Part shown: in pieces, positions 8,921 to 49,459 of the stretch | How the letters are laid out: each line of letters starts with the position of its first letter | Numbering within the stretch: the first letter of the stretch is position 1 | DNA from: a bacterium | Lineage (GTDB): Bacteria > JAMCPX01 | Length of the DNA stretch: 64,000 bases | Direction of reading: 5' to 3' | Assembly (NCBI GenBank): GCA_021792615.1 | Contig: JAJYUJ010000002.1 | Span: 41,495 to 105,494 of the forward strand | Notes under the pieces: generated by a model | What the model saw: only the letters and a program-made list of their open reading frames with translations | What the model was told of the DNA's origin: nothing | Databases searched by the model: none | Translations under genes and position numbers: made by a program

Positions 8921-8941
8921 AAAACTTCCTCCTTTTTCGTT

Positions 8942-8971
8942 ATAATTCCCATACCCTTATAACTTTGTCAA
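8942..8971 (-). promoter_or_regulatory. Possible promoter of the lipoprotein gene
   Basis: Minus-strand TTGACA (8971-8966), an 18-bp spacer and AATTAT (8947-8942). A partly overlapping dyad TGATC-TT-GATCA lies directly upstream and may be a regulator site. Confidence 0.45.
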
Positions 8972-9058
8972 TGATCAAGATCACACCGTTCCCGCACCCT
9001 GTTTTTTCTTAAAAGCTTGCATTTTATGCATATCTTAATAATACTGAGAAGCAACTTT

Positions 9059-9280
9059 ATGAAACAGTTACGGGAACTCATTGGAAAAGAAGTGGAGGTT
9101 GTAGCCAATGGCATAGTATACAAAGGCGTACTCAAGGATGCGTCCGAGTACGCAATAAGCATACTTTCAATGTCCGGCTGGCTTGAGATTAGTATGTCGT
9201 CTATCAACAGGATCAGTGAGGCCGGAACTCAGGTATTTGAACCAAAATATGTTGACCCGTCATTTTACAAGGACAAATAA
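9059..9280 (+). CDS. Small Sm-like protein
   Basis: A 73-residue protein beginning MKQLRELIGKEVEV. The pattern GKEVEVVANGIVYKGVLKDAS followed by a hydrophobic strand and SMSSINRI fits a short Sm/Hfq-like beta-barrel of the kind seen in many small bacterial proteins, but no diagnostic RNA-binding motif can be shown. The ATG at 9059 is preferred to one at 9017, since the extra 14 residues look non-conserved. It lies 90 bp upstream of pepA and may share its transcript. Confidence 0.6.
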   Translation: MKQLRELIGKEVEVVANGIVYKGVLKDASEYAISILSMSGWLEISMSSINRISEAGTQVFEPKYVDPSFYKDK

Positions 9281-9370
9281 TAATAAAGAGCCGATGACCC
9301 CGCCCTGGCCCACTTCAATAAAAGGGGATAAAAACCAAGGGGGTATTCCTAAAAGGAGGACGAGCTAAAG

Positions 9371-10822
9371 ATGAAGATAGTGCCCGGTGCAGGTGATTAT
9401 AAAAAGGCCGATGCGGAATTAAAGGTATATGGATATTTCAAGGACGATCTTGAAGCACTTTTGAAAGCGCTGGAACCGGATAGTGCCCGGCATATTAAGC
9501 CGCAATTAAAGGACCTCAAAAACGGATTAAGGTTTTTGAATAAACAGGGCACGTGGTATTCATTTTTAAAACTTGATGAAAAACAGAAAACAACGGCAGA
9601 ATCATTCAGGAAATTCGGTGCCGCTCTTGCAAAAGAGGCGGATGCAGTATCCGCAAAAAATGTCGTTGTACTCATGCCTGCGGCGGAAAAAGTAACACCG
9701 GATGATGCTGCCGCTGCTTTGACCGAGGGCATTGTCCTCGGTATGTATACTTATGATGAGCTAAAAACATCGGATAAGAACAACGGTCCCGGATTAAAAT
9801 CCATAGCTGTCTATACGTGCGGGAAAACCAGAATATCACAGAAGGCCATCGATCGCGCACAACGCGTTTCAGAGGCAACCAATGAGGCACGCAGGCTTGC
9901 AGACGCTCCGAGCAATCTGATGACACCGGCTATATTCGCCAGGATAGTGACCGGTAAGGCAAAAAAAGAAGGCATCCGGGTAAAGGTGCTGGAAAGACCT
10001 GTTCTCGAAAAGGCTGGCTGGGGTGCATTCCTCGGGGTTGCCCGCGGGAGTTACGAACCGCCGAAGGTCGTTATTCTCGAATATCATGGCGGCAAAGGAC
10101 AAAAAAAACACGTCATCGTAGGCAAGGGCATTACCTTTGACAGCGGCGGGATATCGATAAAACCAAGCAGCGGTATGGAGGAGATGAAGTTCGATATGGC
10201 AGGGGCTGCTGCGGTTGCCATGACCGTCATCCTTGCGGCAAGATTAAAAATACCGGTAAATCTTGCAGCCGTTATACCGCTTACGGAAAACATGCCGGGA
10301 GGCAAGGCGCAGAAGCCCGGCGATGTCGTGAAAACCCTCTCCGGCAAGACCGTCGAAATTATATCCACGGACGCAGAGGGCAGGTTGATACTTGCGGATG
10401 CCCTGTACTATGCGGTAAAAACATTCAAACCCGAATCCATCATCGACCTTGCAACACTCACCGGCGCATGCGTTGTTGCACTGGGAAGTGAGGCAAGCGG
10501 TATCATGGGGACCGGGGACGGACTTATCGACGAGATCATCGAGGCAGGAGAGCGGAGCGGAGACCGGCTCTGGAAGCTTCCCCTGTGGGATGATTATAAA
10601 GACCTGCTCAAAAGCGATGTCGCGGACATCAGGAATTCAGGCTCGCGCTGGGCAGGCGCTATACAGGGCGGCATATTCCTGAAGGAGTTTGTCGGAGATG
10701 CCCGCTGGGCACACGTCGATATCGCAGGCACCGCCTACCTTGAACGGCCAAAGGCCTATTTTAAAAAAGGAGCGACCGGTGCCGGTGTACGGTTTCTTAT
10801 CAAATTTTTCGAGGAACAATAA
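9371..10822 (+). CDS. pepA: Leucyl aminopeptidase (M17 family)
   Basis: Cytoplasmic di-metal aminopeptidase that releases N-terminal residues from peptides. The C-terminal catalytic domain carries VGKGITFDSGGISIKPS (metal and catalytic Lys), MKFDMAGAAAV, and the signature STDAEGRL near residue 335, where Ser replaces the usual first Asn. Then come ATLTGACVVALG and the C-terminal HVDIAGTAY. Length 483 is typical. A strong AAAAGGAGG precedes the start by 12 nt. It begins a rightward series with cobO and the acyl-CoA mutase. Confidence 0.96.
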   Translation: MKIVPGAGDYKKADAELKVYGYFKDDLEALLKALEPDSARHIKPQLKDLKNGLRFLNKQGTWYSFLKLDEKQKTTAESFRKFGAALAKEADAVSAKNVVVLMPAAEKVTPDDAAAALTEGIVLGMYTYDELKTSDKNNGPGLKSIAVYTCGKTRISQKAIDRAQRVSEATNEARRLADAPSNLMTPAIFARIVTGKAKKEGIRVKVLERPVLEKAGWGAFLGVARGSYEPPKVVILEYHGGKGQKKHVIVGKGITFDSGGISIKPSSGMEEMKFDMAGAAAVAMTVILAARLKIPVNLAAVIPLTENMPGGKAQKPGDVVKTLSGKTVEIISTDAEGRLILADALYYAVKTFKPESIIDLATLTGACVVALGSEASGIMGTGDGLIDEIIEAGERSGDRLWKLPLWDDYKDLLKSDVADIRNSGSRWAGAIQGGIFLKEFVGDARWAHVDIAGTAYLERPKAYFKKGATGAGVRFLIKFFEEQ

Positions 10823-10832
10823 TTGACCTGCT

Positions 10833-11360
10833 ATGGAAGGCCCGGGATTAATTCAGATATATACGGGTAACGGCAAGGGAAAGACCACCGCGTCTTTGGG
10901 CCTGGCATTAAGGGCAGCAGGTCATGGCTACAAGACCATAATAATCCAATTCATGAAGGGTAAGATAGATTACGGGGAGTTAAAGGCACAAAAATTGCTT
11001 GAACCCTATCTTAAGATCGTTCAGGCGGGTGGGCCGCATTTTATAAAAAGGGGCAGCCCCTCTGAACAGGATATAAAGATGGCACATGAAGGTCTTGAAG
11101 AAGCAAAAAGGGCCTTTACGGAAGGGTCCTATAACATCGTTATTCTTGATGAATTGAATGTAGCAATTGACTTCGGGCTTATTACCCTCACCCGGGCACT
11201 TGAACTGATAAAACAAAAACCGCCGGATGTTGAGTTGATCATCACCGGCAGGTATGCACGGCAGGAGATTATAGATATCGCGGACCTTGTGACCGAGATG
11301 AGAGAGATAAAGCATTATTACCAAAAGGGAGTGCAGGCACGGGATGGCATCGAAAAGTAA
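10833..11360 (+). CDS. cobO: Cob(I)alamin adenosyltransferase (CobO/BtuR type)
   Basis: Transfers the adenosyl group of ATP to cob(I)alamin, giving coenzyme B12. The P-loop [21 protein letters not shown] sits at the N-terminus. Later motifs are [14 protein letters not shown] and the ELIITGRYA strand, all typical of the BtuR/CobO family (175 residues). It starts 10 bp after pepA, and its last 17 bases overlap the mutase gene that needs the cofactor, so the two are likely translationally coupled. Confidence 0.95.
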
Positions 11361-23531: not shown

Positions 23532-23592
23532 TTAATCAGAAAAATGCGCACAAGGAAGTTTCCTTATTTTTCAATCGCATTTTTCGGGTTAA
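23532..23592. repeat. 61-bp interspersed palindromic repeat
   Basis: Outer arms TTAATCAGAAAAATGCG (23532-23548) and CGCATTTTTCGGGTTAA (23576-23592) are inverted, 14 of 17 matching. An inner hairpin AAGGAA-GT-TTCCTT is followed by ATTTTT and may terminate the BtrH gene. The right edge contains the stop codon of the response regulator at 23589. Partial copies are at 729-766, 1012-1037 and 52053-52068. Confidence 0.75.
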
Positions 23593-23993
23593 GCAACAGC
23601 AAGGAGCTTATCGACCGTTTTTATGAGGAAGTCGCTTTTTACCGGTTTTTCAAGATAGGCCTCCGGTGCCCGAATTGCGACCCCCTTTAAAAATTTCTTG
23701 TAGCTGATATCGCTGTTTGTGTTTGTATCAATGCCCGTTATAATGACGATGGGAATGTCATTCCAGTTTTGCGATCCACGGATTTTTCTGAAAAGCTTTA
23801 TGCCCGTTTCCCCGGGCAGTATAAGGTCGAGAGTTATGAGATCGGGTTTTTGTTTTACCAATGCCCTTATCGCCTGCGCACTGGTACCGGCAATGACAGC
23901 GCTATAGCCGGATTCCTCAACCAGATATTTCAGGAAACCGGCGAAATCAAAGTCGTCTTCAATTATTAAGATACTTTTTCTTTGTGTTTTCAT
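23589..23993 (-). CDS. REC-only response regulator (Rrf1-like)
   Basis: 134 residues, a single receiver domain without output. Acidic pocket IIEDD, phospho-acceptor Asp in LITLDLILPGETGIK, Thr/Ser in IVIITG and Lys in YLEKPV. It is the last gene of the leftward redox-complex operon. In Desulfovibrio the hmc operon likewise ends with the response regulator rrf1, so the position supports a regulatory or assembly role. It is a paralogue of the first gene of the operon at 32838 (shared LITLDL..P..TGIK and EKPV). Its 3' end runs into a palindromic repeat. Confidence 0.9.
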   Translation of the reverse strand: MKTQRKSILIIEDDFDFAGFLKYLVEESGYSAVIAGTSAQAIRALVKQKPDLITLDLILPGETGIKLFRKIRGSQNWNDIPIVIITGIDTNTNSDISYKKFLKGVAIRAPEAYLEKPVKSDFLIKTVDKLLAVA

Positions 23994-24013
23994 CCGTACA
24001 GCCTTATCGCATT

Positions 24014-25261
24014 TTAAAAATTAACCGCCTGTTTTTTCCCTGCCATGGGCATTGATTCCGGTTCAGACTCCTCATGGGCATGTAATATTGCCATACGATT
24101 AACAATGAACCGGTAGGAAAGAACAAGCATGGTGATAACACCGAGGGTCAGCATAATCTCGGTCCACCTTGGATAGTATTTTTGTGAAGCCGGCAGGTAC
24201 CAGTTAAATGCTACGATGGAAACATCCAGTCTGTTCAATACCACCCCGAGGACTGTCAACAACCCGGCAAACCGGGTCAACTTTGCATTTTGCTGCCTGA
24301 CTGCATAGAGGAATATCATGGCAGGAACAAGAACAAAACCCAGGACTTCCACAAGATATAAGTACCCGTACGATGTGTTCAAATAGACCCAATTCTCCGT
24401 GCGCACGAGGTCAAACACCTTCAAGAGAAAATATATGAAGAGTGCTGAGGATGCTGCTTTTCCAAGCCCGAGGGTAAGTTGATCGAATTCAGCATGATCA
24501 AAATCTTTTATCTGGTTTGCAAAAAACCTGTGTGACAGAGCGCTTTCGACGATAACCATGGAGATACCCGCAAAGATGGCCGAGAGCAGGAAGAAAATCG
24601 GGAGCAAAGGCGAGTACCATAGCGGATAGAGTTTCGCCCGTGCAGCAAGGTACAATGCACCCAGTGCCGATTGGTGCCCGGCAGCTATGATGACACCGAA
24701 GATGGTAGCCCAGACAGTCAATTTACTGAAAAAGTCCTTCCATTTTTTTAGATTGAGCCATTCAAAAAGCACCGGACTGAATTCAACAATGGATATGTTG
24801 ATGTAGAGGAAGAAATGCCATCCTATCAAGAATAGGATCGAGGTGAACCCCCAGGACCATACGAGGAGATAGGGAATACGGTAATACCGGCCGAGATCGA
24901 ACATCAAGGCAATTACCGCAAAAATGTATCCGAGAAGACTCGAGAGTATAGCAGGGCGGACAAACGGGTGATACTTTTTCATCCCAAACAGATGGACTGC
25001 CGTGCCAAGGGTAAGCCCGGGAGCTGCCAGAGCAATACCCACGAGGATATCGAACCCTATCCATAGCCCCCACGGGTAATTATCCGAAAGGTTTGTCGAC
25101 GGCCCGAGCCCATAGATTATCCTATAGACCATAATTGGAACCGACACACAGAGGATGAGAGCGGCTATAAGGTTCGGCAGGGTAAGGTTGATCTTCAGGT
25201 ATTCCTTCGGCGTCATCCCCAGCAGTATTTTATTTTTAAGCCATAAACTTGTATTTTCCAT
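24014..25261 (-). CDS. hmcC: NrfD/HmcC-type integral membrane subunit
   Basis: 415 residues with about ten hydrophobic helices; PsrC/NrfD/HybB superfamily quinone-interacting subunit. Typical features are the N-terminal NYPWGLWIGFDILVGIALAAPG and ALSALFAG-like helices, and a short hydrophilic C-terminus. In Hmc it is the membrane partner that connects the periplasmic Fe-S protein with the menaquinone pool. It starts 25 bp after the Fe-S subunit gene, with AGGAAGG as ribosome site. No haem ligands are expected in this family. Confidence 0.9.
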   Translation of the reverse strand: MENTSLWLKNKILLGMTPKEYLKINLTLPNLIAALILCVSVPIMVYRIIYGLGPSTNLSDNYPWGLWIGFDILVGIALAAPGLTLGTAVHLFGMKKYHPFVRPAILSSLLGYIFAVIALMFDLGRYYRIPYLLVWSWGFTSILFLIGWHFFLYINISIVEFSPVLFEWLNLKKWKDFFSKLTVWATIFGVIIAAGHQSALGALYLAARAKLYPLWYSPLLPIFFLLSAIFAGISMVIVESALSHRFFANQIKDFDHAEFDQLTLGLGKAASSALFIYFLLKVFDLVRTENWVYLNTSYGYLYLVEVLGFVLVPAMIFLYAVRQQNAKLTRFAGLLTVLGVVLNRLDVSIVAFNWYLPASQKYYPRWTEIMLTLGVITMLVLSYRFIVNRMAILHAHEESEPESMPMAGKKQAVNF

Positions 25262-25286
25262 ACGTAATCCTTCCTTTTGTTATAAT

Positions 25287-26306
25287 CTACGTTTTTTTCC
25301 CGGTGTCCGAAGGTCCTCCTGCGTGTTTGTCGTTTCTGTGTTCGCGAAGTTTCGATACTGCGTAATATGCTCCGAAAACAAGGGGCCAGGCGCTCACCAT
25401 TTCGAATATCTTTACTCCTAACAGATACCCTTTCGTAAGATCGGGAACGGGTGTTGTACCGACATCCGTCCGAAGGCCTATTTGATCGAAGTCTACCGGT
25501 GAAAGATAAAGCCAGCTTGTTCCTCCTGCCTCCTGCTCCCCGTAAATATGGTTTATGTATCTGCCGGGGTTGCTGTCGATCCTCCGGCGGGCTGTTTTGA
25601 TCAATTCGCTCCTGCTGCCGAATATGAGAGCGCCGGCAGGACAGTTCTCCACACACGCAGGCATCCGTCCATCCACGACCCTGTCGTAGCACATGGTACA
25701 TTTGGTAATCTGCGGGTGAAAAGCTGAAAAGTATTCATACGCGGGAATGCCAAAGGGGCATGAGACCATACAATACCTGCATCCTATACACACATTGGGA
25801 TTATAGATCACGGGTCCTTCGGGCGTTTTTCTGAAGGCGTCTACAAAACAGGCGTTGAGGCATGCCGGATCAACGCAGTGCATGCATTGTTTCTTTACAT
25901 AGACAGGATCACGATCTTTTTTCTCAAACCGGTTGACGACGGTGAAGTTGCCGGCATGGGTCCTTCTCACGTCATTGAAAACAGAGTTTTTTTCATTCAC
26001 CGATGCTTCAAACTTTTCTACAGGCTGATTTGGGTTTTTATTCCAGTTGTTGCAAGCCCATTCGCACCTGCGGCACCCGATACAAAAAGTCGTGTCGACC
26101 AATATACCGTACGGTTCACCGTTCGGCTGTGATTGCTTTTTTCTCTTTTCCCATATCTTCCAGTCTCTTTCATTGGCCGTGTTGTCCGTAAAGAATTTTG
26201 AAAAATCTTTTTTATCTGCTGCGTGTGCAATACTGCTGCCGCCGAGCAAGGTAACACCGGCAATCGCTGCAGTGCGTTTTAAGAACTCTCTTCTATCGAT
26301 ACCCAT
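25287..26306 (-). CDS. hmcB: Tat-exported 4x[4Fe-4S] ferredoxin-type subunit
   Basis: HybA/HmcB-type protein. A twin-arginine signal (DRREFLKRTAAIAGVTLLGG) directs export. Four cysteine clusters follow: CIGCRRCEWAC, CMHCVDPACLNAC, CIGCRYCMVSC and CTMCYDRV...CVENC, giving four cubane ligand sets. A single hydrophobic helix near the C-terminus (MVSAWPLVFGAYYAV) anchors it to the membrane. It would take electrons from the 16-haem cytochrome to the HmcC-like subunit. GGAGG lies 7 nt before the ATG. Confidence 0.93.
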   Translation of the reverse strand: MGIDRREFLKRTAAIAGVTLLGGSSIAHAADKKDFSKFFTDNTANERDWKIWEKRKKQSQPNGEPYGILVDTTFCIGCRRCEWACNNWNKNPNQPVEKFEASVNEKNSVFNDVRRTHAGNFTVVNRFEKKDRDPVYVKKQCMHCVDPACLNACFVDAFRKTPEGPVIYNPNVCIGCRYCMVSCPFGIPAYEYFSAFHPQITKCTMCYDRVVDGRMPACVENCPAGALIFGSRSELIKTARRRIDSNPGRYINHIYGEQEAGGTSWLYLSPVDFDQIGLRTDVGTTPVPDLTKGYLLGVKIFEMVSAWPLVFGAYYAVSKLREHRNDKHAGGPSDTGKKT

Positions 26307-26333
26307 ATTCTGCCTCCATCATTGCAAAGGTCG

Positions 26334-26453
26334 TTAATACTTTCTTCTCGGGGTACTCACAAAGTAATAGAACACTATGAATACAAACAGAGTCAGAATA
26401 GCTATGAGGTATTCATAACCTATCGGTGTAAACAATTGTTTTAAGATATACAT
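26334..26453 (-). CDS. hmcD: 39-residue single-helix membrane protein (HmcD-like)
   Basis: Encodes MYILKQLFTPIGYEYLIAIL, a hydrophobic run and a basic end PRRKY. There is one predicted helix of ~20 residues (YLIAILTLFVFIVFYYFV). AAGGAG sits 7 nt before the ATG, and the gene fills the otherwise unexplained space between the cytochrome (10 bp away) and the Fe-S subunit (27 bp away). Desulfovibrio hmc operons carry a tiny membrane protein, HmcD, beside the same partners. No sequence homology can be proven by eye, so the name rests on size, topology and position. Confidence 0.78.
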   Translation of the reverse strand: MYILKQLFTPIGYEYLIAILTLFVFIVFYYFVSTPRRKY

Positions 26454-26463
26454 TTTTGTCTCC

Positions 26464-28203
26464 TTATTTCGCCTGATCGGTTTTCACAAACGCATGACAG
26501 TCCGCACAAGCCTTCGGTTTTTTGAGTTCCATTTTCGTGTGACACTGGATACACATTTCATGGTAAGCGGCAAGAAGACGCGGACGGTTTAAAGTCAACG
26601 GTTCGAAATACTTGCTATGACATTCGACGCAGGACGGCGGTTCATCTTTTATAATCTGTGCATCACGGTATCCATGGTGGTGGCATGCTTCACACAGTGT
26701 TTGAATGTTCTCATGAAAATATGTTGCAAGTTTGCTGCTGTTGGAAACCCCGGCTAATTTTATCAGTATCTTTTCATGAGGATATTTCACAGGTTTGAAT
26801 TGGTTTGCAAGCTCCTTTATGGTAATTTCTTTCTTCACAATGTCCGGGTTAAGGCCGGCAGTAGTTAACGTGGCAGGCATTGCAACCTTGCTGAGGCCAT
26901 TATGACAACGGGAACACATCCGATCAGAGGGTTCTTTTGCGACTACGGATGGACGGTGGCATCCGGAGCAATCCTTTGCTGTTTCTTCTGCCTTATGGCA
27001 TCCGATACAACTCTTATTGGAGAAGAGGTCATGATAGGCATCGAACACGTTGATTCCTTCGCCGTTAACACCGCCCTGCAGAGTATGGCATCGAGAGCAG
27101 TTGTATAAGGTTTCATGGTGGCAGGCCCTGCAACTGTCGATCTGCTGCGCATGGAATGCGTGATCGAAGGGAACAGTCTTCATCTTTGCGTCCTTCACTG
27201 TTATCGAACACGTAGCCGGCTGGCCTGCCTGCGGACGCGGAACTTTTGCAAGTTCCGCCGGTGCCACGGACTTTCTTTCGTGACATTTATAACAGAGCGT
27301 AGGGCCGGCTTTACCAGCGCCCTCTGCTTTGGCTATAATCAGATGGCAGTTCAGACACCGTATATGAGCGATCCTTTCCATGGTGAGTGCTTTTCTGGTC
27401 GTTACGCTCATGTCGGCCGCAAGAAGAGGGCTTCGCTGTGCACCAATAGTGTGGCAATCTTCGCACGCCCACGACCTGTCTGTCTCCCTGCCGCTTTTAT
27501 AAACAACCGCGTAGATCATCTTCTTTTGCTCCGGGGAATACTGGTGATGACACAGCGCGCAATTTTTCTCCCGGGCCTTTTGTTCTATGAGTTTCTTTTG
27601 GCTTTCCTTGAGATTATCCGGTTCGAATTTCACCACAACCGTGGATTCGAGATTAAGGGCTTGAAGTTCTTCGATCTGTTTCATCTGCAGTTTCTTTGTA
27701 TGGGTCTCGTGGAGTTTAAAATCGAAGTTCACTCCGGGATACGTATATTTTGCTGCATCTGTGCCTTTTACATGACAGTTTCCGCACACCACGGGTCCTG
27801 CCTTTTTCCCTTGCTCCAACCTCTTTTCATGACAACCTATGCACGCCGTATGGTATGCATGCATCAGGGCTTTGGGGGATGTTTGACTTATATCTTTAAT
27901 ACCCTGAGGAAAGATGAAATCTACGAGGTTATGATTTTTGCCATAAAAAGGATGGCAGGCATCGCAACCCTTGCCTTCTTTTCCCAAAACCTGCGTATGC
28001 TTGTCGTGGTCAAATATTACTGCGGGGTATTCCAATGTTTCAAATACCTTTGTATTTGCAATAACAATCTTATCGTCATACGTTGTCTTCACCAGTTTTT
28101 CTGCGGGAACACGCTGGACCCCGGAATGAACGACGCCGGACATTCCTGCAATAATCGTAATCAGTAATCCCGGAATTGCTATGATACTGAACCTTTTTTT
28201 CAT
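26464..28203 (-). CDS. hmcA: 16-haem high-molecular-weight cytochrome c (HmcA-like)
   Basis: 579 residues with an N-terminal signal peptide and exactly sixteen CXXCH motifs (first CDACH near residue 80, last CADCH near 570), the same number as Desulfovibrio HmcA. Additional histidines (for example in FDHDKH, FDHAFH and HAYH) are likely sixth ligands. It should be periplasmic and pass electrons between soluble cytochrome c3-type carriers and the membrane complex. GGAGGAAG precedes the start. It sits 15 bp after the TmcB/HmcF-like gene. Confidence 0.95.
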   Translation of the reverse strand: MKKRFSIIAIPGLLITIIAGMSGVVHSGVQRVPAEKLVKTTYDDKIVIANTKVFETLEYPAVIFDHDKHTQVLGKEGKGCDACHPFYGKNHNLVDFIFPQGIKDISQTSPKALMHAYHTACIGCHEKRLEQGKKAGPVVCGNCHVKGTDAAKYTYPGVNFDFKLHETHTKKLQMKQIEELQALNLESTVVVKFEPDNLKESQKKLIEQKAREKNCALCHHQYSPEQKKMIYAVVYKSGRETDRSWACEDCHTIGAQRSPLLAADMSVTTRKALTMERIAHIRCLNCHLIIAKAEGAGKAGPTLCYKCHERKSVAPAELAKVPRPQAGQPATCSITVKDAKMKTVPFDHAFHAQQIDSCRACHHETLYNCSRCHTLQGGVNGEGINVFDAYHDLFSNKSCIGCHKAEETAKDCSGCHRPSVVAKEPSDRMCSRCHNGLSKVAMPATLTTAGLNPDIVKKEITIKELANQFKPVKYPHEKILIKLAGVSNSSKLATYFHENIQTLCEACHHHGYRDAQIIKDEPPSCVECHSKYFEPLTLNRPRLLAAYHEMCIQCHTKMELKKPKACADCHAFVKTDQAK

Positions 28204-28218
28204 CGCGCTTCCTCCGAC

Positions 28219-29565
28219 CTACTTCTTGGCCTTCATGCTCTCTGGCACCTCTATTGCATCAACAAGTATATCGCTGATAAATTTCGTATGCATGCCAAGC
28301 TTGTAATATCCAATTATGTCCTCTATGCCGCTGTGGCAGTTATGGCATGGCGTAATAACGACACGTGCGCCCGTTGCCTTCATTTGTTCCGCCTTGACAC
28401 GGTTTCCCTCCATGCGTTTGAGCTTCCAGGGGGGACCGCAGTTGATGACACCTCCGCCTGCTGCACAGCAATAATTGTGCTCTTTGTTTGGCGACATATC
28501 CCTGAAATCTTCACAGATCGCATTCACAACATACCGCGCCATGTCACCAAGTCCCCTCCCCCGCATTACATTGCACGGGTCATGCAGGGTTACGGGCTCT
28601 TTGAATTTCTTAACGATCTTTATCCTTCCTTCTTTGATAAGCTCATAATAAAACTGGATCGCATGTATGACCGGCACCGGAGGCATCTTCCAGCCGAACC
28701 ACCGGTTCCCGACATCGTAGACGGATCTGAATGCATGGCCACATTCGCCCATGACGATCCTTTTGACCTTCAGCCGCATGGCAGCTTCAAAATGCGCCCT
28801 CTTTACCCTTCCCATTATCTCCTGATCCCCGGAAAACATGGCCATATCGCTGTTGTCCCAGCCGTCGAAAGAAGGGAACGTCCAGTCAATACCGGCAACG
28901 TTCATGATCTTGGCAGCATTTCCGATAAGCATGGCGAGGAACTTCGGCTCCGGACCGATGACAGAATACATGATATCGGCGCCTTCCTTATCCAAAGGAA
29001 TCGTAAGATTTTTTATCTCTCTTCTGTAATCGTCCTCCTGCCAGAATAAGGTATCGATCCATTCGTCCTGCTTGAGCCACATCTGGTTCATGGTAGCAGC
29101 GTGACTGTGTGCGGTATCCTGCAGGTATTGGGGTGTTACACCGAGCAGATGGCATATACGCCGTACGGAACTTATTATGTAGGCAATATCGATTCCAAAG
29201 GGACAGTACATACTGCATCTGCGGCACAGGTTGCACTCGGTGTATGCTATTTCTGCAATTTTTTTGACGGAATCGGGACTTACACGGCCTTTGTTCTTCA
29301 GTATCTCCCACATGGTCTGCTTGACCTTACCGACCGGAGAGAAATGCGGATCACCGTCATGCGACAGATAAAAATGGCACGCCTCCGAGCATAGTCCGCA
29401 GTGGATACAGGTCGAGACATAAGCATCCAAACGTGCACCGCCCATAGCAGCCAGTGCATTGTTTATCGTTATTTCTATTTTTTCCGGGGTCAGTTTTTTT
29501 GCACCTTCTTCTAAGCCAAGATCGATTATTTTTTTCACTTCTTTCTTTTCAGCCGCTACTGCCAT
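28219..29565 (-). CDS. tmcB: Cytoplasmic Fe-S / CCG-domain subunit (TmcB/HmcF-like)
   Basis: 448 residues, HdrD-related. Two [4Fe-4S] motifs CIHCGLCSEAC and CNLCRRCSMYC are near residues 60 and 120. The C-terminal cysteine-rich (CCG) domain contains HDPCN, YCCAAGGG and ITPCHNCHSG. No export signal, so it should face the cytoplasm, as in Tmc and Hmc complexes. The ATG at 29565 has GGAGG seven nt upstream; an open frame to 29733 would overlap the tmcC-like gene and is not used. CCG domains bind non-cubane clusters in Hdr enzymes. Confidence 0.92.
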   Translation of the reverse strand: MAVAAEKKEVKKIIDLGLEEGAKKLTPEKIEITINNALAAMGGARLDAYVSTCIHCGLCSEACHFYLSHDGDPHFSPVGKVKQTMWEILKNKGRVSPDSVKKIAEIAYTECNLCRRCSMYCPFGIDIAYIISSVRRICHLLGVTPQYLQDTAHSHAATMNQMWLKQDEWIDTLFWQEDDYRREIKNLTIPLDKEGADIMYSVIGPEPKFLAMLIGNAAKIMNVAGIDWTFPSFDGWDNSDMAMFSGDQEIMGRVKRAHFEAAMRLKVKRIVMGECGHAFRSVYDVGNRWFGWKMPPVPVIHAIQFYYELIKEGRIKIVKKFKEPVTLHDPCNVMRGRGLGDMARYVVNAICEDFRDMSPNKEHNYCCAAGGGVINCGPPWKLKRMEGNRVKAEQMKATGARVVITPCHNCHSGIEDIIGYYKLGMHTKFISDILVDAIEVPESMKAKK

Positions 29566-29609
29566 TCCATACCTCCATCGTGAACTTGATTCGTCGTACC
29601 GCGCATGTT

Positions 29610-30284
29610 TTACCAGTCCCTGGCATGACGCACCATGCCAAACTCCGAACCTGTGTAAGCCCTTGTGAATACGGAGAACAACATGTGTGCCAGCCTGGTA
29701 AAGGGGATCGCAATCAACATAAGTTCTCCGCACAGGATATGAAGCACTATTAATGCTTTATACGGGAGAAACAGTTGGTGGTACGCTAAAAATCCTGTGA
29801 AAAACGGTAAAAATACAATTGCGAGGATAAAAAAGTCTGAAGGATAGGTAACGAACCTGACCTCTCTTGCAACAAACCTTCTCAGGAGAAAGAACACACA
29901 GGAAAGCATTACGATGAGCGTCATAAGGTCGGCAAGCCCCTCCGGCAGGGTCCACAATCTTATGTGCCATGATTGAAACAACAGGATGTTATGTGCCAAC
30001 AAGAATACCGGCGTTATGATGAGACAAAAGTGAAAAAGAAAGGTTACGGTCGTCATGACAGGGTGTCTTCTCCAATTAACCGTGCCAAAAGGTGTGGCCC
30101 AATGGGCAATGGATCTCAGACCGTATTTAAAACTCATGTACGGCAGAACGACTGCTTCCTTTTTCAGACCGGAGATTATTTTGTATATCCTGTATGTGCT
30201 GCCTGATATGAATACCAGAAAAGCGAGCCATACCATCGGACCTCTCACAAACTCATAGAAACCTTCGCTCATAAGGAATTTCAT
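29610..30284 (-). CDS. tmcC: NarI-like cytochrome b membrane subunit (TmcC/HmcE-like)
   Basis: 224 residues with about five hydrophobic helices and the NarI/HdrE pattern. Helical histidines (FHFCLIITPVF and HILCGELMLIAIPFTRLAH) are candidate haem b ligands. It should pass electrons between quinone and the cytoplasmic CCG subunit encoded next. Length and order match TmcC and HmcE. It lies 20 bp after the tmcD-like gene. The ribosome site GGAG is slightly distant (11 nt). Confidence 0.9.
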   Translation of the reverse strand: MKFLMSEGFYEFVRGPMVWLAFLVFISGSTYRIYKIISGLKKEAVVLPYMSFKYGLRSIAHWATPFGTVNWRRHPVMTTVTFLFHFCLIITPVFLLAHNILLFQSWHIRLWTLPEGLADLMTLIVMLSCVFFLLRRFVAREVRFVTYPSDFFILAIVFLPFFTGFLAYHQLFLPYKALIVLHILCGELMLIAIPFTRLAHMLFSVFTRAYTGSEFGMVRHARDW

Positions 30285-30303
30285 AGCTTTGTATTCTCCA
30301 TTT

Positions 30304-31701
30304 TTAAATTTCGTCTAAAGGAACAACATACCGGTAATACTTGCCACCCCCTATGCAACGGACGAGAATCTTATCTCCACGGGGGCTGAATACCGGGGAC
30401 CAGAGTGCGTCAAACATTTTTTTACCTGCCTTGCCGTTTACAGCGACACAGTATTTCCCGTTGATTTCCGCCTTTGCCGCTACCGTACTTCCGTCCGGGC
30501 TAAAAACCGGGTCCCATATCATATCGAAATCCTGATTCCACGGGATACCGTCAACAACGATTGTCCACCGGTCGTTTCCTTCGATGCTGTGAAGTGACGA
30601 GCCCATATTCATAGGATCCTTCGATTCCTTTGCTATTGCCGCCACCCGTTTACCGTCCGGAGAAAATACGGGGTCTAAAACCGTATCGCTGAATGTTTGC
30701 TTCCATGCACTGCCGTCAACAGCTATCGTCCACCTGCCGAATTCAGATGCCACTACAGCCGCTATCTTTTGACCGTCAGAACTGAATTTCGGGGGCCATA
30801 CCTGAATAAAGGGTCCCCAAATCGGCTTTCCATCGAGGGCGAGTGTCCAGCCCTTGGCGATCTTAACCGGAGCGATAACATTGTTTTTTGCCGTAAAACA
30901 GGGCTCGCACACACACTTATAGGTTTGCGGCCACATGTTCCCGTCTACGACGACTGCGTAGTCATACAGGTTTATTCTTGTTTCTGCAGCAACGTGCCTG
31001 CCGTCGGGACTGAAGGCGAGGCCCCAGACATTGACAAAGTTTTTATCCCACGGGACCCCGTTCACAGCGACGGTCCAGACACCCTTCTGAAAATTAAATA
31101 TGTCGGCCTCTGCAAGCCTTTTTACGGCAACCGATGCTGCTGCCTTTGTCCCATCGGAGCTGATGAAAAGGTTTCTTACATCGGCAAAGCCCTGTACCCA
31201 TGGTTTATCCCCCAGACAAACACCGTATTGATCATCTTTCTTTATGTTGATACCAATGGATCTGCCATTTGGTGCTATCTGTAAATTCCACGCATAGTCG
31301 AACTTTTCATTCCAGGGGATCCCGTCGAGAGCAACGGTCCAGGCATTATCTTTGAGTACAAGACATGCTGCCTTACCTTCATTGGTGAATTTAAACGACC
31401 ATATTTTTTCGTACGTTTCTTCCCATGGATTTCCATTTATGCAGACGGTAAAAGTCTCATCATCGTTCTGAACCACAGCTCCTATTTTTTCCCCGTCTTC
31501 GCTTACGTTGAAGGGACGCACCTCGGCATATCTGCTTTTCCATTCGTCGGTATTGGCGATCATCTTTTCTTTCGTATCCCAATCCATTCTGGACTCCGCA
31601 TCCTTTCCGCGGTCCAGCGGAGTTGCCGTATGTAATGGGGACGGGATACCCTGTTTTGAGATCGGTTGGACTTTTTCTTCTGATTTTTGCGTTGCTTCCA
31701 T
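30304..31701 (-). CDS. tmcD: Trp-rich beta-propeller-like protein (TmcD-like)
   Basis: 465 residues, about 52 kDa, no signal peptide. The body is nine to ten repeats of ~43 residues with consensus WTVAVDGxPWxxxFxxVW followed by FSPDGxxVAA, a WD40/Tol-PD40-like pattern. This resembles TmcD, the tryptophan-rich fourth subunit of the Tmc complex, which has no Hmc counterpart. Its role is not established; a scaffold or cytoplasmic docking function is plausible. The ATG directly abuts the kinase stop, with AGGAGG at 6 nt. The first ~55 residues are polar linker. Confidence 0.87.
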   Translation of the reverse strand: MEATQKSEEKVQPISKQGIPSPLHTATPLDRGKDAESRMDWDTKEKMIANTDEWKSRYAEVRPFNVSEDGEKIGAVVQNDDETFTVCINGNPWEETYEKIWSFKFTNEGKAACLVLKDNAWTVALDGIPWNEKFDYAWNLQIAPNGRSIGINIKKDDQYGVCLGDKPWVQGFADVRNLFISSDGTKAAASVAVKRLAEADIFNFQKGVWTVAVNGVPWDKNFVNVWGLAFSPDGRHVAAETRINLYDYAVVVDGNMWPQTYKCVCEPCFTAKNNVIAPVKIAKGWTLALDGKPIWGPFIQVWPPKFSSDGQKIAAVVASEFGRWTIAVDGSAWKQTFSDTVLDPVFSPDGKRVAAIAKESKDPMNMGSSLHSIEGNDRWTIVVDGIPWNQDFDMIWDPVFSPDGSTVAAKAEINGKYCVAVNGKAGKKMFDALWSPVFSPRGDKILVRCIGGGKYYRYVVPLDEI

Positions 31702-32841
31702 TTAATGCCTCCTGTAAGGTATAGAGATCGAGAAGACGGTGCCTTTCGGTGAAGATTCAAATGTAATCATGCCGCCGTGGCCGGCTATGATCTTTTCCGT
31801 TGTAAGCAATCCGAGTCCTGTTCCCCTGTCATTCTTCGTCGTAAAATAACCTTTAAAAATTTTATCTTTGTTTTTCCGGGAGATCCCGCATCCATTATCT
31901 TTTACAGAAACGAGACACCCGATTCCCCTATAATCACTGCTTTTAATCGTAATGCCATGATAAGACTTTCTTCGCTTATCCATTCTGCAAGCGTCTATTG
32001 CATTATCTGCAAGATTTAAAACAGCATGATAAAGACCATTGCTGTTTCCGTGTATCGTCTTTATATCTTTACCGAACACTCTGCTGAATTTTATATGCTC
32101 CCTGGCCAGTTTTTCTTTTATCGCAACGGCAACGTCCTCTAAAATCCGGTTCATTTCGACAGGCTCCGGTATTGAAGGCACGTCTTTTGCATAGTCGAGT
32201 AAACGGAGAACCGTATCTGACAGTTTTGTTATGTTCCCCTGGATCATGGACCAGCCCTTGCTAATTTTTTCCTGTTCTCCACGCATAAGCCCGTTGTTGA
32301 CTAAATATGTTCCTGCATCCATCAGGGAAACGACGTTTTTTATACTATGAGCGATACCGGATAGTGTCTGACCGAGGACCGCGAGTTTCTCGGCATGTTT
32401 GAGCCTGGTTATGTCGGTAGCTATCTCTATAACGTGCGAAACATGGCTATGATCACCAAATACCGGGAATGATTGAACGAGAATATGGCGGGTTTCTCCA
32501 TTCAGAAGGATTGGCTCTTCGCGCATGTGTGGTTTGCCGTCATGAAAAGACCTCTCGAGGCAGCAATCATTACATTTTGCATTTCTATGTTTATAGAGTT
32601 CATAACAATGCCTGCCTGCTGTTGTGCCGAAATCCTCGATCACCCTTTCATTGGCCTGTATTATATAAAAAGCCCTGTCCTGCATTGTTATGTAACACGG
32701 GACAGTATTATAAATGGATTTATAAATGTTAAACTGATTTATGAATGATACCATGCTTTCCCGGTAAGCCTTTGCAGAAGCAACTACTTTTCCAGAATCA
32801 AGCGTCGTTCTATCGATAGTTTTCAATGAAGAGGTTCTCAT
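31702..32841 (-). CDS. Soluble PAS histidine kinase with a cysteine cluster
   Basis: 379 residues, no membrane helix. A PAS domain (about 40-150) contains CYELYKHRNAKCNDCC, four cysteines of a kind often seen in redox-responsive PAS domains of anaerobes. The kinase core has phospho-acceptor His in LSGIAHSIKN, the N box NLADNAIDAC, G1 VKDNGCGIS and G2 GTGLGLLTTEKI. It overlaps the preceding response regulator by 4 bp (ATGA), so the pair is probably a two-component system acting on or with the redox operon. Confidence 0.92.
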   Translation of the reverse strand: MRTSSLKTIDRTTLDSGKVVASAKAYRESMVSFINQFNIYKSIYNTVPCYITMQDRAFYIIQANERVIEDFGTTAGRHCYELYKHRNAKCNDCCLERSFHDGKPHMREEPILLNGETRHILVQSFPVFGDHSHVSHVIEIATDITRLKHAEKLAVLGQTLSGIAHSIKNVVSLMDAGTYLVNNGLMRGEQEKISKGWSMIQGNITKLSDTVLRLLDYAKDVPSIPEPVEMNRILEDVAVAIKEKLAREHIKFSRVFGKDIKTIHGNSNGLYHAVLNLADNAIDACRMDKRRKSYHGITIKSSDYRGIGCLVSVKDNGCGISRKNKDKIFKGYFTTKNDRGTGLGLLTTEKIIAGHGGMITFESSPKGTVFSISIPYRRH

Positions 32842-33308
32842 ATCGCCTTTGCCCTTAAGCTTGAAGTACTTCTTTTTTTAGACGCCAGAATTTTGCGGAT
32901 AACAGAAATAAGCCTTAACGATTCAACCGGTTTTTCAAAATAACCATCAGGTGGCATTAATGCCTTGGAATATAAAGCCTTTTTAAAATCTATCCCTGGA
33001 TGGGTGTTATTGGTATAACTGGTTATTATTATTACGGGAATTGAACAATATTTACTGTTTTTTCGTATTTCCGTAAAAAATTTTATGCCGGTTTTATTCG
33101 GCATTATAAGATCAAGGGTTATAAGGTCAGGCACGATGGATTTCATCAGTTGAAAACCAGCCATACCGTCGGATGCAAGCACAGTACAGAATCCAGCCTC
33201 TTCCAAAATGATTTTCAGGTAGTAAGAGAATTCAGGATCATCCTCTACAATCAGAATTCTTGGGATTATTCCGCCATGCTCATAGTTATCTGATACTTTT
33301 TTTTCCAT
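32838..33308 (-). CDS. REC-only response regulator, first gene of the redox operon
   Basis: 156 residues, single receiver domain: acidic pair IVEDD, phospho-acceptor in LITLDLIMPNKTGIK, IIITSYT and Lys in GYFEKPV. No output domain. The ATG at 33308 is chosen because the open frame further upstream (TTG at 33332) runs into the TGGTCTGACCA element. Paralogous to the regulator at 23589 that closes the operon. It could relay phosphate from the adjoining kinase. Confidence 0.88.
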   Translation of the reverse strand: MEKKVSDNYEHGGIIPRILIVEDDPEFSYYLKIILEEAGFCTVLASDGMAGFQLMKSIVPDLITLDLIMPNKTGIKFFTEIRKNSKYCSIPVIIITSYTNNTHPGIDFKKALYSKALMPPDGYFEKPVESLRLISVIRKILASKKRSTSSLRAKAI

Positions 33309-33647: not shown

Positions 33648-34652
33648 ATGAAAATTAAGAATGTATTATCCCTTATTGCTTTTTTGATTTTTGGTTTAAC
33701 GGTTTCGAACGGGTGTACTCCTGTCAAACAAACAACTACAGACGCGCCTTCCCTGCACTTTGATCAAGTAAGTTATAATTTTGGAAAAATCCCTAAGGGA
33801 AAAAAAGTTTCACATAATTTTACGTTTACCAATACCGGTAATGAGAAGCTTGTCATAACCAAGGTACAACCAACCTGCGGGTGTACGGTGGCGGTTACCT
33901 CATCAAAGGAATTGTTGCCGGGAGCAAAGGGCGTAATCAAGATTACATTCGATTCTCAGGGCTACCTTGGACCTATTACCAAGACCATTACGGTTATGGA
34001 TAACGACCCTGCAAAACCATCGGTATTGCTGTCTATCAGCGGCGACGTAGTCACAGACGTTATGCTCTCTAAACCAGCCCTGTTTTTCGGCTCTATTAAG
34101 AAGGGGCAGGGAGCACAGCAATCTGTAGATATTTTCATCTCCAATCCTTCTGTGCACATAATGTCCGTCGTCTCGACAAATCCTTATATAAAAGTATCAA
34201 CCGTCAGCCAGTTTATGTCCCAGGAAACTATCAATGTGTCCGTTCTTCCGGATGCCGGGTATGGTCCGCTCAACGCCGATATTCTTATTCTTTCTTCGAG
34301 CAAAGAACAACCTGCGCTCCACATACCGGTTATAGGTAACATTGTCGGCGATATTCTTCTGAACCCCGATGTGGTAGATTTTGGCGTTGTTAAGGCACAC
34401 GCCGAACAAAGTATACTGCCTGTTTACCTTTATACTCAGCCGCCGCGCGAATTCTCTTTAACAAAGGTAACGGTAAAACCCGATATTGTCCATGTAAAGG
34501 TCATGAAACAAAACCAGGGAAGCTATAAGTTAGAATTGCTGTTAAAACCGGTAAAAAGTATGGGTGGTATTCATGGCACCATAACCGTCCTGACAACAAT
34601 GAAAAAAATGCCTGTTGTCGTTATTCCGTTTCAAGGAACTATCGAGCCCTAA
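33648..34652 (+). CDS. DUF1573 lipoprotein
   Basis: 334 residues. Signal peptide with lipobox (SNGC near residue 23). The N-terminal half is a DUF1573 immunoglobulin-like domain with SYNFGKIPKGKKVSHNFTFTN and the hallmark TCGCTV; a second Ig-like module follows (FGSIKKGQGAQQSVDIFISN) and a third at the C-terminus. Function unknown; probably an envelope protein. GGAGG precedes the start. It is divergent from the redox operon, with the shared regulatory region between them. Confidence 0.85.
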   Translation: MKIKNVLSLIAFLIFGLTVSNGCTPVKQTTTDAPSLHFDQVSYNFGKIPKGKKVSHNFTFTNTGNEKLVITKVQPTCGCTVAVTSSKELLPGAKGVIKITFDSQGYLGPITKTITVMDNDPAKPSVLLSISGDVVTDVMLSKPALFFGSIKKGQGAQQSVDIFISNPSVHIMSVVSTNPYIKVSTVSQFMSQETINVSVLPDAGYGPLNADILILSSSKEQPALHIPVIGNIVGDILLNPDVVDFGVVKAHAEQSILPVYLYTQPPREFSLTKVTVKPDIVHVKVMKQNQGSYKLELLLKPVKSMGGIHGTITVLTTMKKMPVVVIPFQGTIEP

Positions 34653-47392: not shown

Positions 47393-49459
47393 TTATAAAG
47401 ACCTTTGTACGATCTCTGCTATATCGAGCACTTTGACGTTATCTTCAACGCCCTTGTCTTTTACTCCATCGTCAATCATGGTCATACAGAACGGGCATGC
47501 GGTTGCGATAACATCGGGGTTCAGGGACAATGCCTCTGCAGTCCTCACCCTGTTGATACGGTCGCCTTCTTTTTCCTCAAGCCACATCCTCGCACCTCCT
47601 GCGCCGCAGCAGAAGCTGTTTTTGTGACTGCGTTTCATTTCAACCATCTTTACCTGCGGTACGGCTGCAACGACATCACGCGGCTCTGCGTAGATATTAT
47701 TGTGCCTGCCGAGGTAGCATGAGTCATGGTAGGTAACGGTCTTTTCCATGGCCTTTACCGGATTCAATCTGCCCTCTTTGATAAGCTGGCTGATGAACTG
47801 TGAGTGATGGATAACCTCATAATTTCCGCCAAACTCGGGGTAATCGTGCTTGAGCGTGTAATACCCATGCGGACATGCGGTTACAATCTTTTTCACCTTG
47901 TACTTGTTGAGCGTTTCTACGTTCTGCTTTGCGAGGGCCTGGAACGCATACTCGTTGCCCGCCCTTCTTACCCAATCTCCGCAGCACGTCTCTTCTGTGC
48001 CGAGCACCGAGAACTTTACCTTGGCCGCCTGCATAAGTTTGACGAATGCAATGGCAATCTTTTTGTTCCTGTCGTCGTAAGCCCCGGCACACCCTACCCA
48101 GAACAGGATATCGGCATCCGGCTGCTCAGCCATGGTCTTCACGCCGAGGCCCTCTGCCCATTCAAGCCGGGCATCGGAACCGAGCCCCCACGGGTTGCCG
48201 TTCGTATCGTTGTTTCTGAATGTTGCGGACAACTCCTGCGGCATCTTGCTCTCGGTCATAACAAGATACCTTCTCATATCTATAATATCCCTGATATGTT
48301 CATTTGCTACAGGGCAGATCGCCTGGCATGCGCCGCACGTTGTACATGCCCAGAGCTCCTGCGGAGAAATGGACGTGGCTGTAGCATGTTCTTTGGGATG
48401 TTCTTTTTTAAAGGCCATGCGCTGTTCACCCGCTGCGTCGTCCGCGATAAGGGTGGCCCTTTGGTCGTCCGGCAGTTTTTCGCCGGCTTTTAACTTCAGG
48501 ATCTTCGGACCGTTTGCTTTCATATTTTCCTTGATGTTCAGAATAACCTCTCTCGGTGAAAGGATCTTACCCGTATTTGCTGCGGGACAGTCATCCGTAC
48601 ACCGGCCGCATTCCGTACATGCAGGTCCGTCAAGCAGTTGTTTCCACGTTAATTCCTCAAACTTCGAAACACCGAAGGTCTCAACGCCCTCTGCCTCGAA
48701 GTTTATGGGCTGAAGCTGCATGGTTTTTTCCGAAAGATTGAGGAAAAAATTGTTCGGTATTGCACCGAGTATATGCAGGTGCTTTGAGTTCGGAATAAAA
48801 TCAAGGAAGAATAAAAGCATGAGTACATGCAGCCACCAAATTACCTCGTATGTTACGGGAGATAAGGGGTTCGTAACATGGAAAATCTTTATGTACGTAC
48901 CGGCAAAGAGCATCCAGTTTACTGCACCCGACACAGGCTCATCGGGGTTTACGCCGTTGCTTATATTCATGGCAAACAGGGTGAGCATAAGCCCTGTTAT
49001 AAGACCGAGTATCAAGTAAGAACCAAAGTGATAGTTCAGCTTTTGGGGATGTTCTATAAACCTCCTTGCAAGGGACATGAGGATCGCAATGAGGACTGCC
49101 GCTGCCATAAAGTCCTGGGAAAAGATGAATAAATTATAGAGGGGATAACCTAAAAACTTAAAGGTAAATCCATGCACCAGTCCTCCGGCAAGTATCTCTA
49201 TCTCTCCGAGCAGCAGGATCATGAATCCCCAGAAGATCATAAAGTGCATGATACCGGCATACAGGATATCACCCTTGGGGCGCTTGAAATTTGCGAGCTG
49301 GAAGATGGCATTGCGTATCATCATCCATGTCCGCTTACCGATTCGATCGAACCGGTTTTCCGGTTTACCGAGCAGGACAAACTTTGCTAAGGTGATTACT
49401 TTGTAGAAAAAATAGCTTAATGAAACAATTAAAACTATGGCTACAAAAATTGATTTCAT
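47393..49459 (-). CDS. Membrane Fe-S oxidoreductase, ETF:menaquinone oxidoreductase-like
   Basis: 688 residues. About six N-terminal helices form a NarI-like cytochrome b domain. Two [4Fe-4S] motifs follow, CTECGRCTDDCPAANTGK (about residue 275) and CTTCGACQAICPVANEH (about 375). Two CCG domains contain GTEETCCGDW, HDSCYLGRHN and FCCGAGGARMW. This architecture, directly behind etfBA, matches the EMO proteins that pass electrons from acyl-CoA dehydrogenases via ETF to methylmenaquinone in syntrophic bacteria. It should be an inner-membrane enzyme. About 100 bp with a hairpin separate it from etfA. Confidence 0.9.
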   Translation of the reverse strand: MKSIFVAIVLIVSLSYFFYKVITLAKFVLLGKPENRFDRIGKRTWMMIRNAIFQLANFKRPKGDILYAGIMHFMIFWGFMILLLGEIEILAGGLVHGFTFKFLGYPLYNLFIFSQDFMAAAVLIAILMSLARRFIEHPQKLNYHFGSYLILGLITGLMLTLFAMNISNGVNPDEPVSGAVNWMLFAGTYIKIFHVTNPLSPVTYEVIWWLHVLMLLFFLDFIPNSKHLHILGAIPNNFFLNLSEKTMQLQPINFEAEGVETFGVSKFEELTWKQLLDGPACTECGRCTDDCPAANTGKILSPREVILNIKENMKANGPKILKLKAGEKLPDDQRATLIADDAAGEQRMAFKKEHPKEHATATSISPQELWACTTCGACQAICPVANEHIRDIIDMRRYLVMTESKMPQELSATFRNNDTNGNPWGLGSDARLEWAEGLGVKTMAEQPDADILFWVGCAGAYDDRNKKIAIAFVKLMQAAKVKFSVLGTEETCCGDWVRRAGNEYAFQALAKQNVETLNKYKVKKIVTACPHGYYTLKHDYPEFGGNYEVIHHSQFISQLIKEGRLNPVKAMEKTVTYHDSCYLGRHNNIYAEPRDVVAAVPQVKMVEMKRSHKNSFCCGAGGARMWLEEKEGDRINRVRTAEALSLNPDVIATACPFCMTMIDDGVKDKGVEDNVKVLDIAEIVQRSL

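Follow-up and report, generated by a model that had tools for sequence, protein, structure and literature searches.

A ten-gene operon combining Tmc-type and Hmc-type subunits in a predicted sulfate reducer

We analysed a stretch of 64,000 nucleotides (contig JAJYUJ010000002.1 of the bacterial assembly GCA_021792615.1, positions 41,495 to 105,494; hereafter the window) that carries an operon of ten genes combining subunits of two redox complexes, Tmc (TmcABCD, known from Desulfovibrio and other Desulfobacterota) and Hmc (HmcABCDEF). Tmc is called a simplified form of Hmc, with no intermediate between the two. The operon probably encodes a deep-branching variant of Tmc, composed of TmcDCB and HmcADBC, whose cytochrome and quinone module are of the Hmc type and which would feed menaquinone and DsrC. 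The arrangement is old and widespread and was previously labelled Hmc. It has been seen already, but is not recognised as a hybrid in the literature searched.

Gene content of the operon

Ten open reading frames (ORFs) adjoin on the minus strand from position 33308 down to 23589 of the window. In the direction of transcription they encode a REC protein, a PAS kinase, TmcD, TmcC, TmcB, HmcA, HmcD-like, HmcB-like and HmcC-like proteins, and a second REC protein. An earlier note, made from this sequence alone, had described such a leftward operon with overlaps and with gaps below 50 bp, and all ten ORFs and the spacing were confirmed. The REC and kinase genes overlap by 4 bp, and no spacer separates the kinase gene from tmcD. 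The TmcD/TmcC spacer is 19 bp, and the TmcC/TmcB spacer is 44 bp if the ATG of tmcB at 29565 is the start, as a longer ORF with a GTG at 29733 overlaps tmcC. The remaining spacers are 15 (TmcB/HmcA), 10 (HmcA/HmcD), 27 (HmcD/HmcB), 25 (HmcB/HmcC) and 20 bp (HmcC/REC). The same ten-gene order was observed in a second species of the genus (genome G005, contig C17, loci L016/L021), where TmcB, HmcC and HmcA are respectively 92%, 90% and 73% identical to those of the window. Thus the operon is not an assembly artefact.

Family membership was judged by the NCBIfam equivalog models with curated bit-score cut-offs. TmcD (30304..31701, 465 aa), a cytoplasmic tryptophan-rich beta-propeller, scores 510 bits with NF045725 (cut-off 440); TmcC (29610..30284, 224 aa), a membrane cytochrome b, scores 308 with NF045723 (cut-off 240); and TmcB (28219..29565, 448 aa), a cytoplasmic protein with two [4Fe-4S] clusters and a CCG domain, scores 790 with NF045724 (cut-off 735). 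HmcA (26464..28203, 579 aa), a periplasmic cytochrome with exactly 16 CxxCH haem-binding motifs, passes the Hmc model NF045713 (425 bits, cut-off 400). The hybrid composition proposed in the earlier note thus stands. That note had also named what would refute it, namely trees with all subunits inside standard Hmc and a TmcD that is an unrelated WD40 protein. Neither was borne out: the trees described below place TmcB and TmcC outside HmcF and HmcE, TmcD is a true member of its family by the score given above, and the Pfam PD40/WD40 models were rejected for it, as their matches are only weak.

The proteins encoded downstream are less typical. The HmcB-like protein (25287..26306, 339 aa), a [4Fe-4S] ferredoxin with a twin-arginine (Tat) export signal (TIGR01409), and the HmcC-like protein (24014..25261, 415 aa), a membrane protein of the NrfD family (PF03916) with ten predicted helices, remain below the Hmc cut-offs (360 against 420 bits for NF045715 and 446 against 550 bits for NF045714). 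They are clear but divergent relatives of these families. The gene between hmcA and hmcB (26334..26453) encodes a single-helix peptide of 39 residues, which is kept in this position in the window's genus and in many hybrids from Nitrospirota. Profile comparison with canonical HmcD by hhalign gave probability 76 and E 2e-5; with the conserved place of the gene, this makes the label HmcD-like fair but not certain.

A tetrahaem TmcA was found neither in the operon nor elsewhere in the genome, which is 99.55% complete; the TmcA model matches only the domains of HmcA itself, in agreement with the absence claimed earlier. Thus the operon resembles Tmc in its TmcB, TmcC and TmcD, in the order tmcD-C-B and in the adjoining REC and kinase genes, but has the 16-haem HmcA in the slot of TmcA and, in addition, the HmcD/B/C quinone module. 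With Hmc it shares the 16-haem HmcA, HmcB, HmcC and possibly, in the HmcD-like peptide, HmcD. However, it has TmcC and TmcB in place of HmcE and HmcF, an additional TmcD, and HmcB and HmcC under the family cut-offs; the HmcD-like gene lies between hmcA and hmcB, whereas hmcD of Hmc lies between hmcC and hmcE.

It is highly improbable that the operon encodes simply a divergent Hmc, although HmcA exceeds the curated cut-off and the similar genes THER_1440-THER_1444 of Thermodesulfovibrio sp. N1 were published as Hmc (PMC5165239). The HmcE model on TmcC (196 against 275 bits) and the HmcF model on TmcB (368 against 750 bits) are far under their cut-offs, while the TmcC and TmcB models are passed. 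TmcD is present, and the trees that the earlier note had proposed place the window proteins in the TmcB and TmcC clades, excluding HmcF and HmcE. The Thermodesulfovibrio genes likewise encode a CCG ferredoxin, a 16-haem cytochrome, a periplasmic ferredoxin and an NrfD protein, but TmcC and TmcD passed unremarked and the Tmc identity was not recognised in that study (PMC5165239).

The remaining genes of the operon are probably regulatory. The upstream REC-only response regulator (32838..33308, 156 aa; PF00072, 62 bits) has DVU0259_DivK as its best NCBIfam match (80 bits, cut-off 160), and its ORF can be extended to 33332 with a TTG start. The sensor histidine kinase (31702..32841, 379 aa) has PAS (PF13426/PF08448) and HATPase (PF02518) domains; no hydrophobic segment or transmembrane helix was found in it. 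The REC-only protein at the 3' end (23589..23993, 134 aa) scores 61 bits with PF00072 and 83 bits with DVU0259_DivK. Together, the kinase and the two REC proteins would regulate the operon. The divergently transcribed neighbour (33648-34652, plus strand) has a DUF1573 domain and is related to the OS_HP2 (seleno)protein family, with 89.5 bits against a cut-off of 100.

Occurrence and phylogeny of the hybrid operons

A survey of loci with TmcB yielded 80 named loci. A tetrahaem gene follows tmcB in 58 of them, which is the classical order tmcD-C-B-A, and a 16-haem hmcA occupies this slot in ten. As tmcD-C-B-A is the order in classical Desulfobacterota operons, the hybrids carry hmcA-D-B-C where tmcA stands. 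The ten hybrid loci come from the window's genus (L021, L022), Nitrospirota (L023, L024), Acidobacteriota and Thermoanaerobaculales (L048, L064, L083), a Zixibacteria bin (L061) and Deltaproteobacteria bins (L060, L081). In a sample of 295 Nitrospirota genomes, 20 contain a full-length TmcD. All 18 inspected have tmcD-C-B-hmcA, followed by hmcB and hmcC wherever the contig allows. Thus the hybrid is the standard form in Nitrospirota. In 297 Acidobacteriota genomes a real TmcB was found only in the seed genome G032, other matches being other CCG proteins. The earlier note had contrasted this locus with the known complexes, but the arrangement is not peculiar to it, being normal in Nitrospirota and present in at least three other lineages.

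One possibility is that two complexes share the operon, TmcBCD and a quinone-linked complex HmcA-B-C-D similar to Nhc, co-expressed and not co-assembled. Indeed, complexes of a cytochrome, an iron-sulfur protein and an NrfD protein exist without a CCG protein (Nhc; PMC4215793, PMC8076601), and Tmc lacking TmcA and without HmcA is known in Seep-SRB1a/g (PMC10553843; locus L095). On the other hand, canonical Hmc keeps HmcABCD in one operon with HmcE and HmcF, the homologues of TmcC and TmcB, and all hybrid operons have hmcA at precisely the position of tmcA, so two separate complexes seem unlikely. Nhc and Ohc themselves differ from the hybrid, as they have nine- and eight-haem cytochromes and no CCG protein, whereas the window has 16 haems and TmcB; the nine-haem cytochrome model fails (113 against 640 bits).

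The tree of TmcB and HmcF (63 rows, IQ-TREE, LG+C20) was rooted with HmcF. DsrK was rejected as a root, as its own branch has a length of 4.1 changes and joins the tree amid the classical Tmc. All classical TmcB, including members without TmcA, group in a single clade (100/96), to which the window protein with those of L021, L022, L023 and L024 is sister (100/99). The remaining hybrids branch outside this pair as a basal grade. The tree of HmcB and HmcC rooted with HybA/HybB shows canonical Hmc as one clade nested next to the hybrid L083 (99/90), with the other hybrids outside. The TmcC tree is little resolved, yet HmcE is excluded from the TmcC clade. In the HmcA tree, canonical HmcA is separate from a clade (support 100) that unites 23 hybrid proteins of Nitrospirota and the window's genus.

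As two independent gene sets agree, the hybrid is favoured as the older arrangement, although this is not formally established. The classical Tmc would then most likely have arisen once from a hybrid, by replacement of hmcA with tmcA and loss of hmcDBC. Several observations weigh against such a polarity. The HmcF branch is very long. The approximately unbiased (AU) test does not reject trees in which all hybrids form a clade of their own, separate from HmcF and Tmc (p 0.059) or from canonical Hmc (p 0.057). Six hybrid HmcA of acidobacterial, zixibacterial and deltaproteobacterial origin fall on the canonical side, which may reflect a second recombination, and HmcC of the acidobacterial and deltaproteobacterial hybrids is nearer to canonical Hmc. 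Similarity of TmcA to the domains of HmcA was discarded as a criterion of polarity, as TmcA matches the N-terminal or second domain of HmcA equally well in hybrids and in canonical Hmc (mean best 45 and 44 bits). The earlier note had called the complex ancestral or hybrid. The latter term holds, and the former is favoured by the two rooted trees and unproven given these AU values.

Since hybrid monophyly is not rejected, a single secondary fusion is an alternative. An ordinary tmcDCBA operon would have lost tmcA and captured hmcA-D-B-C once, and the hybrids would have spread among Nitrospirota, Acidobacteriota and the window's phylum, with the same working but a derived origin. The TmcD tree, with all 25 hybrids on one side (support 87), is consistent with this. 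Some Desulfobacterota (L045, L047) and D. multivorans (PMC5109826) have complete tmc and hmc sets next to each other. In L065 (3746-11299), hmcA-hmcB-hmcC stand directly upstream of a tmcD-C-B of the Desulfobacterota type; the junction is different, and this is an independent association of Hmc and Tmc. However, in the HmcF-rooted tree the hybrid TmcB form a grade outside the classical clade and not within it, and HmcA and HmcC of Nitrospirota form a clade separate from canonical Hmc and are not nested in it. Such a fusion is rather doubtful. The broader suggestion that the hybrid is a living complex of the ancestral type, the source of both classical Tmc and canonical Hmc, with two exits that make Qrc and hydrogenases dispensable, is tentative and should be treated as a minority view.

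Tmc operons without TmcA are known in Seep-SRB1a and Seep-SRB1g (PMC10553843) and resemble the hybrid in this respect, but HmcA/B/C were not found beside tmcDCB in the Seep-SRB1g copy L095. In the TmcB and TmcD trees, this copy (7939-11299) and L076 (3151-6671) group with the hybrids instead of classical Tmc. For Seep-SRB1g this suggests an origin from a hybrid by loss of hmcA-B-C rather than from a classical Tmc by loss of tmcA.

Several loci have unusual structures. Two Nitrospirota loci, L024 (4214-7629) and L153 (2228-4815), contain an extra tmcD-(C)-B, with candidate selenocysteine TmcB, directly upstream of a complete hybrid operon. In L025, L027, L028 and L029 two tmcB copies flank tmcD-tmcC downstream of aromatic amino acid (shikimate pathway) genes; no tetrahaem or 16-haem cytochrome gene was seen beside these tmc genes, and their TmcB branch between hybrids and classical Tmc. 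In L163 (8655-11988; Nitrospirota genome G136) hmcA and tmcC are each split into two ORFs, by decay or sequencing error.

Cofactor sites and in-frame TGA codons

All cofactor motifs of the operon proteins are intact. TmcB retains the eight cysteines of its ferredoxin part, the five of the CCG domain and Cys275 in the motif GECGH, all invariant in the alignment. Histidines 85, 98, 182 and 200 of TmcC are invariant in 111 TmcC and HmcE sequences and are likely to be the ligand set for two b haems. HmcC keeps the residues of the proposed HybB proton pathway (R89, Y99, E148, H184), whose exchange in HybB impairs proton-coupled hydrogen oxidation (PMC8076601). HmcA is related to the cytochromes of PDB entries 1gws, 2cvc, 2e84, 1h29 and 1z1n. 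The AlphaFold model of TmcD is a beta-propeller (predicted local distance difference test score, pLDDT, 88), and a PDB fold search with it found only generic beta-propellers with template modelling (TM) scores below 0.5 and no functional clue.

Ten tmcB genes from eight Nitrospirota genomes have an in-frame TGA at exactly the codon of Cys275 (GE[C/U]GH). These genes are L024:6241-7629, L153:3481-4815, L154:5317-6522, L155:1752-3104, L156:3663-4982, L157:5726-7117, L158:8038-9399, L159:10707-12068, L160:4894-6288 and L164:3323-4699. In most of them the TGA is followed by a strong hairpin resembling a selenocysteine insertion sequence (SECIS), and seven of the eight genomes contain tRNA-Sec of at least 70 bits. 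Thus these TmcB are probably selenocysteine (Sec) proteins. The replacement of precisely this codon suggests that Cys275, in the CCG half of TmcB, is redox-active. The TmcB of the window has cysteine at GECGH, and no tRNA-Sec above the gathering score was found in its genome or in G005. A Sec-containing "Fe-S oxidoreductase (GlpC)" with a UGH motif is a known selenoprotein family (PMC1794560, PMC13188914), but no assignment of Sec to TmcB of a Tmc-Hmc hybrid was found in the literature searched. The motif with Sec is not confined to TmcB, since a second, different CCG protein (L051:6706-7955) has an E-TGA-GH site.

Host genome and possible working of the complex

The earlier note had looked to Desulfobacterota genomes for comparison. 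However, the host lies outside this group, in its own small phylum represented in our set by nine genomes of one family. Its genome (G000, 2.54 Mb) contains DsrAB, DsrC, DsrM, DsrK, DsrP, Sat and AprA above curated cut-offs, and hence the host is predicted to be a sulfate reducer; the Dsr set is DsrABC-MKJOP and the overall pathway Sat-Apr-Qmo-Dsr. The genome has a single TmcD and, apart from DsrK and further CCG proteins, a single true TmcB; no second Hmc or Tmc set was found in it. No [NiFe] hydrogenase match reaches the cut-off. A single weak match lies on contig C35, some 4 kb away from the only molybdopterin match, and probably belongs to complex I. No [FeFe] hydrogenase was found in the genome, and as it has only one molybdopterin protein, it would have no formate dehydrogenase of known kind. 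Thus the usual donors of Tmc, a complex that is reduced by TpI-c3/hydrogenase and passes electrons to the cytoplasm, are missing.

The electrons may come from multihaem cytochromes. The locus L018 (3873-11709, contig C32) encodes cytochromes with 11, 7, 9 and 17 haems together with membrane subunits of the b561 type. MtrC/MtrF-like domains occur in some of these proteins, and the cluster is a possible source of periplasmic or extracellular electrons. Locus L020 (9061-11634; contig C67, upstream of the window) encodes an 857-residue nine-haem protein with a lipoprotein-like signal and a carboxypeptidase-regulatory domain, adjoining the Sat-Apr-Qmo genes. In the window itself, positions 47393-49459 (minus strand) encode a protein of 688 residues that has a ferredoxin domain and two CCG stretches, is closest to heterodisulfide-reductase-like proteins of the TfrB/LdhH type and may be another partner of DsrC; positions 52112-53566 (minus strand) encode a di-haem protein that resembles MauG/MbnH and has three CxxCH motifs.

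That the subunits form one complex with a quinone link we infer from their families. The periplasmic entry would be the 16-haem HmcA, instead of the tetrahaem TmcA, collecting electrons from periplasmic or extracellular multihaem cytochromes. One exit would lead through HmcB to menaquinone at the electrogenic NrfD-type HmcC and further to QmoABC and the adenosine 5'-phosphosulfate (APS) reductase, the other through the two b haems of TmcC and the Fe-S and CCG centres of TmcB to DsrC and sulfite reduction. TmcD might serve TmcB as a cytoplasmic scaffold, which is a guess. Like QrcD, HmcC is likely to be electrogenic (PMC6303296). Qrc and [NiFe] hydrogenase-2 HybAB (PMC6303296, PMC8076601) are further related systems: HmcB and HmcC are homologous to HybA and HybB, with which they share the proposed proton-path residues, but their partners here are a 16-haem cytochrome and a CCG protein in place of a hydrogenase or QrcB. 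To use hydrogen, D. alaskensis requires both Qrc, leading to menaquinone and APS, and Tmc, leading to sulfite reduction (PMC4215793). Since the hybrid holds one Qrc-like and one Tmc-like module behind one cytochrome, a single assembly with two exits, which would do what Qrc plus Tmc do apart in Desulfovibrio, is the economical reading.

Three points speak against this working. The position of HybB Glu133, listed as a quinone-site residue (PMC8076601), is Glu in 17 of 17 canonical HmcC but Leu in 22 of 23 hybrid proteins, so that the quinone step is somewhat doubtful. The PDB search found no Tmc or Hmc membrane complex for TmcB or HmcC, nor a close relative of either from which the architecture could be read, and no biochemistry of any hybrid complex was found in the literature.

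Alternatively, electrons could flow in reverse, with cytoplasmic thiols or quinol as donors and HmcA as the outlet to the periplasm or the exterior, as in syntrophy or extracellular electron transfer. In the genome, neither a periplasmic hydrogenase nor a formate dehydrogenase that could feed HmcA was found, the multihaem clusters with MtrC/MtrF-like domains are present, and reverse operation has been proposed for Hmc (PMC4215793, PMC5109826). However, reductive sulfate metabolism consumes electrons on the cytoplasmic side, and the Tmc homologues oxidise periplasmic cytochromes (PMC4215793); we consider the reverse direction improbable.

In the genome of the window, the Tmc variant with an Hmc-type cytochrome and quinone module is the only Tmc/Hmc-type complex of a predicted sulfate reducer in which neither hydrogenases nor formate dehydrogenase were found. 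The hybrid is common outside Desulfobacterota and is a plausible intermediate between Tmc and Hmc, probably close to the form from which Tmc arose. The kinship of Tmc and Hmc, and the sharing of periplasmic electrons between the quinone pool and DsrC, become testable in cultured Thermodesulfovibrio.

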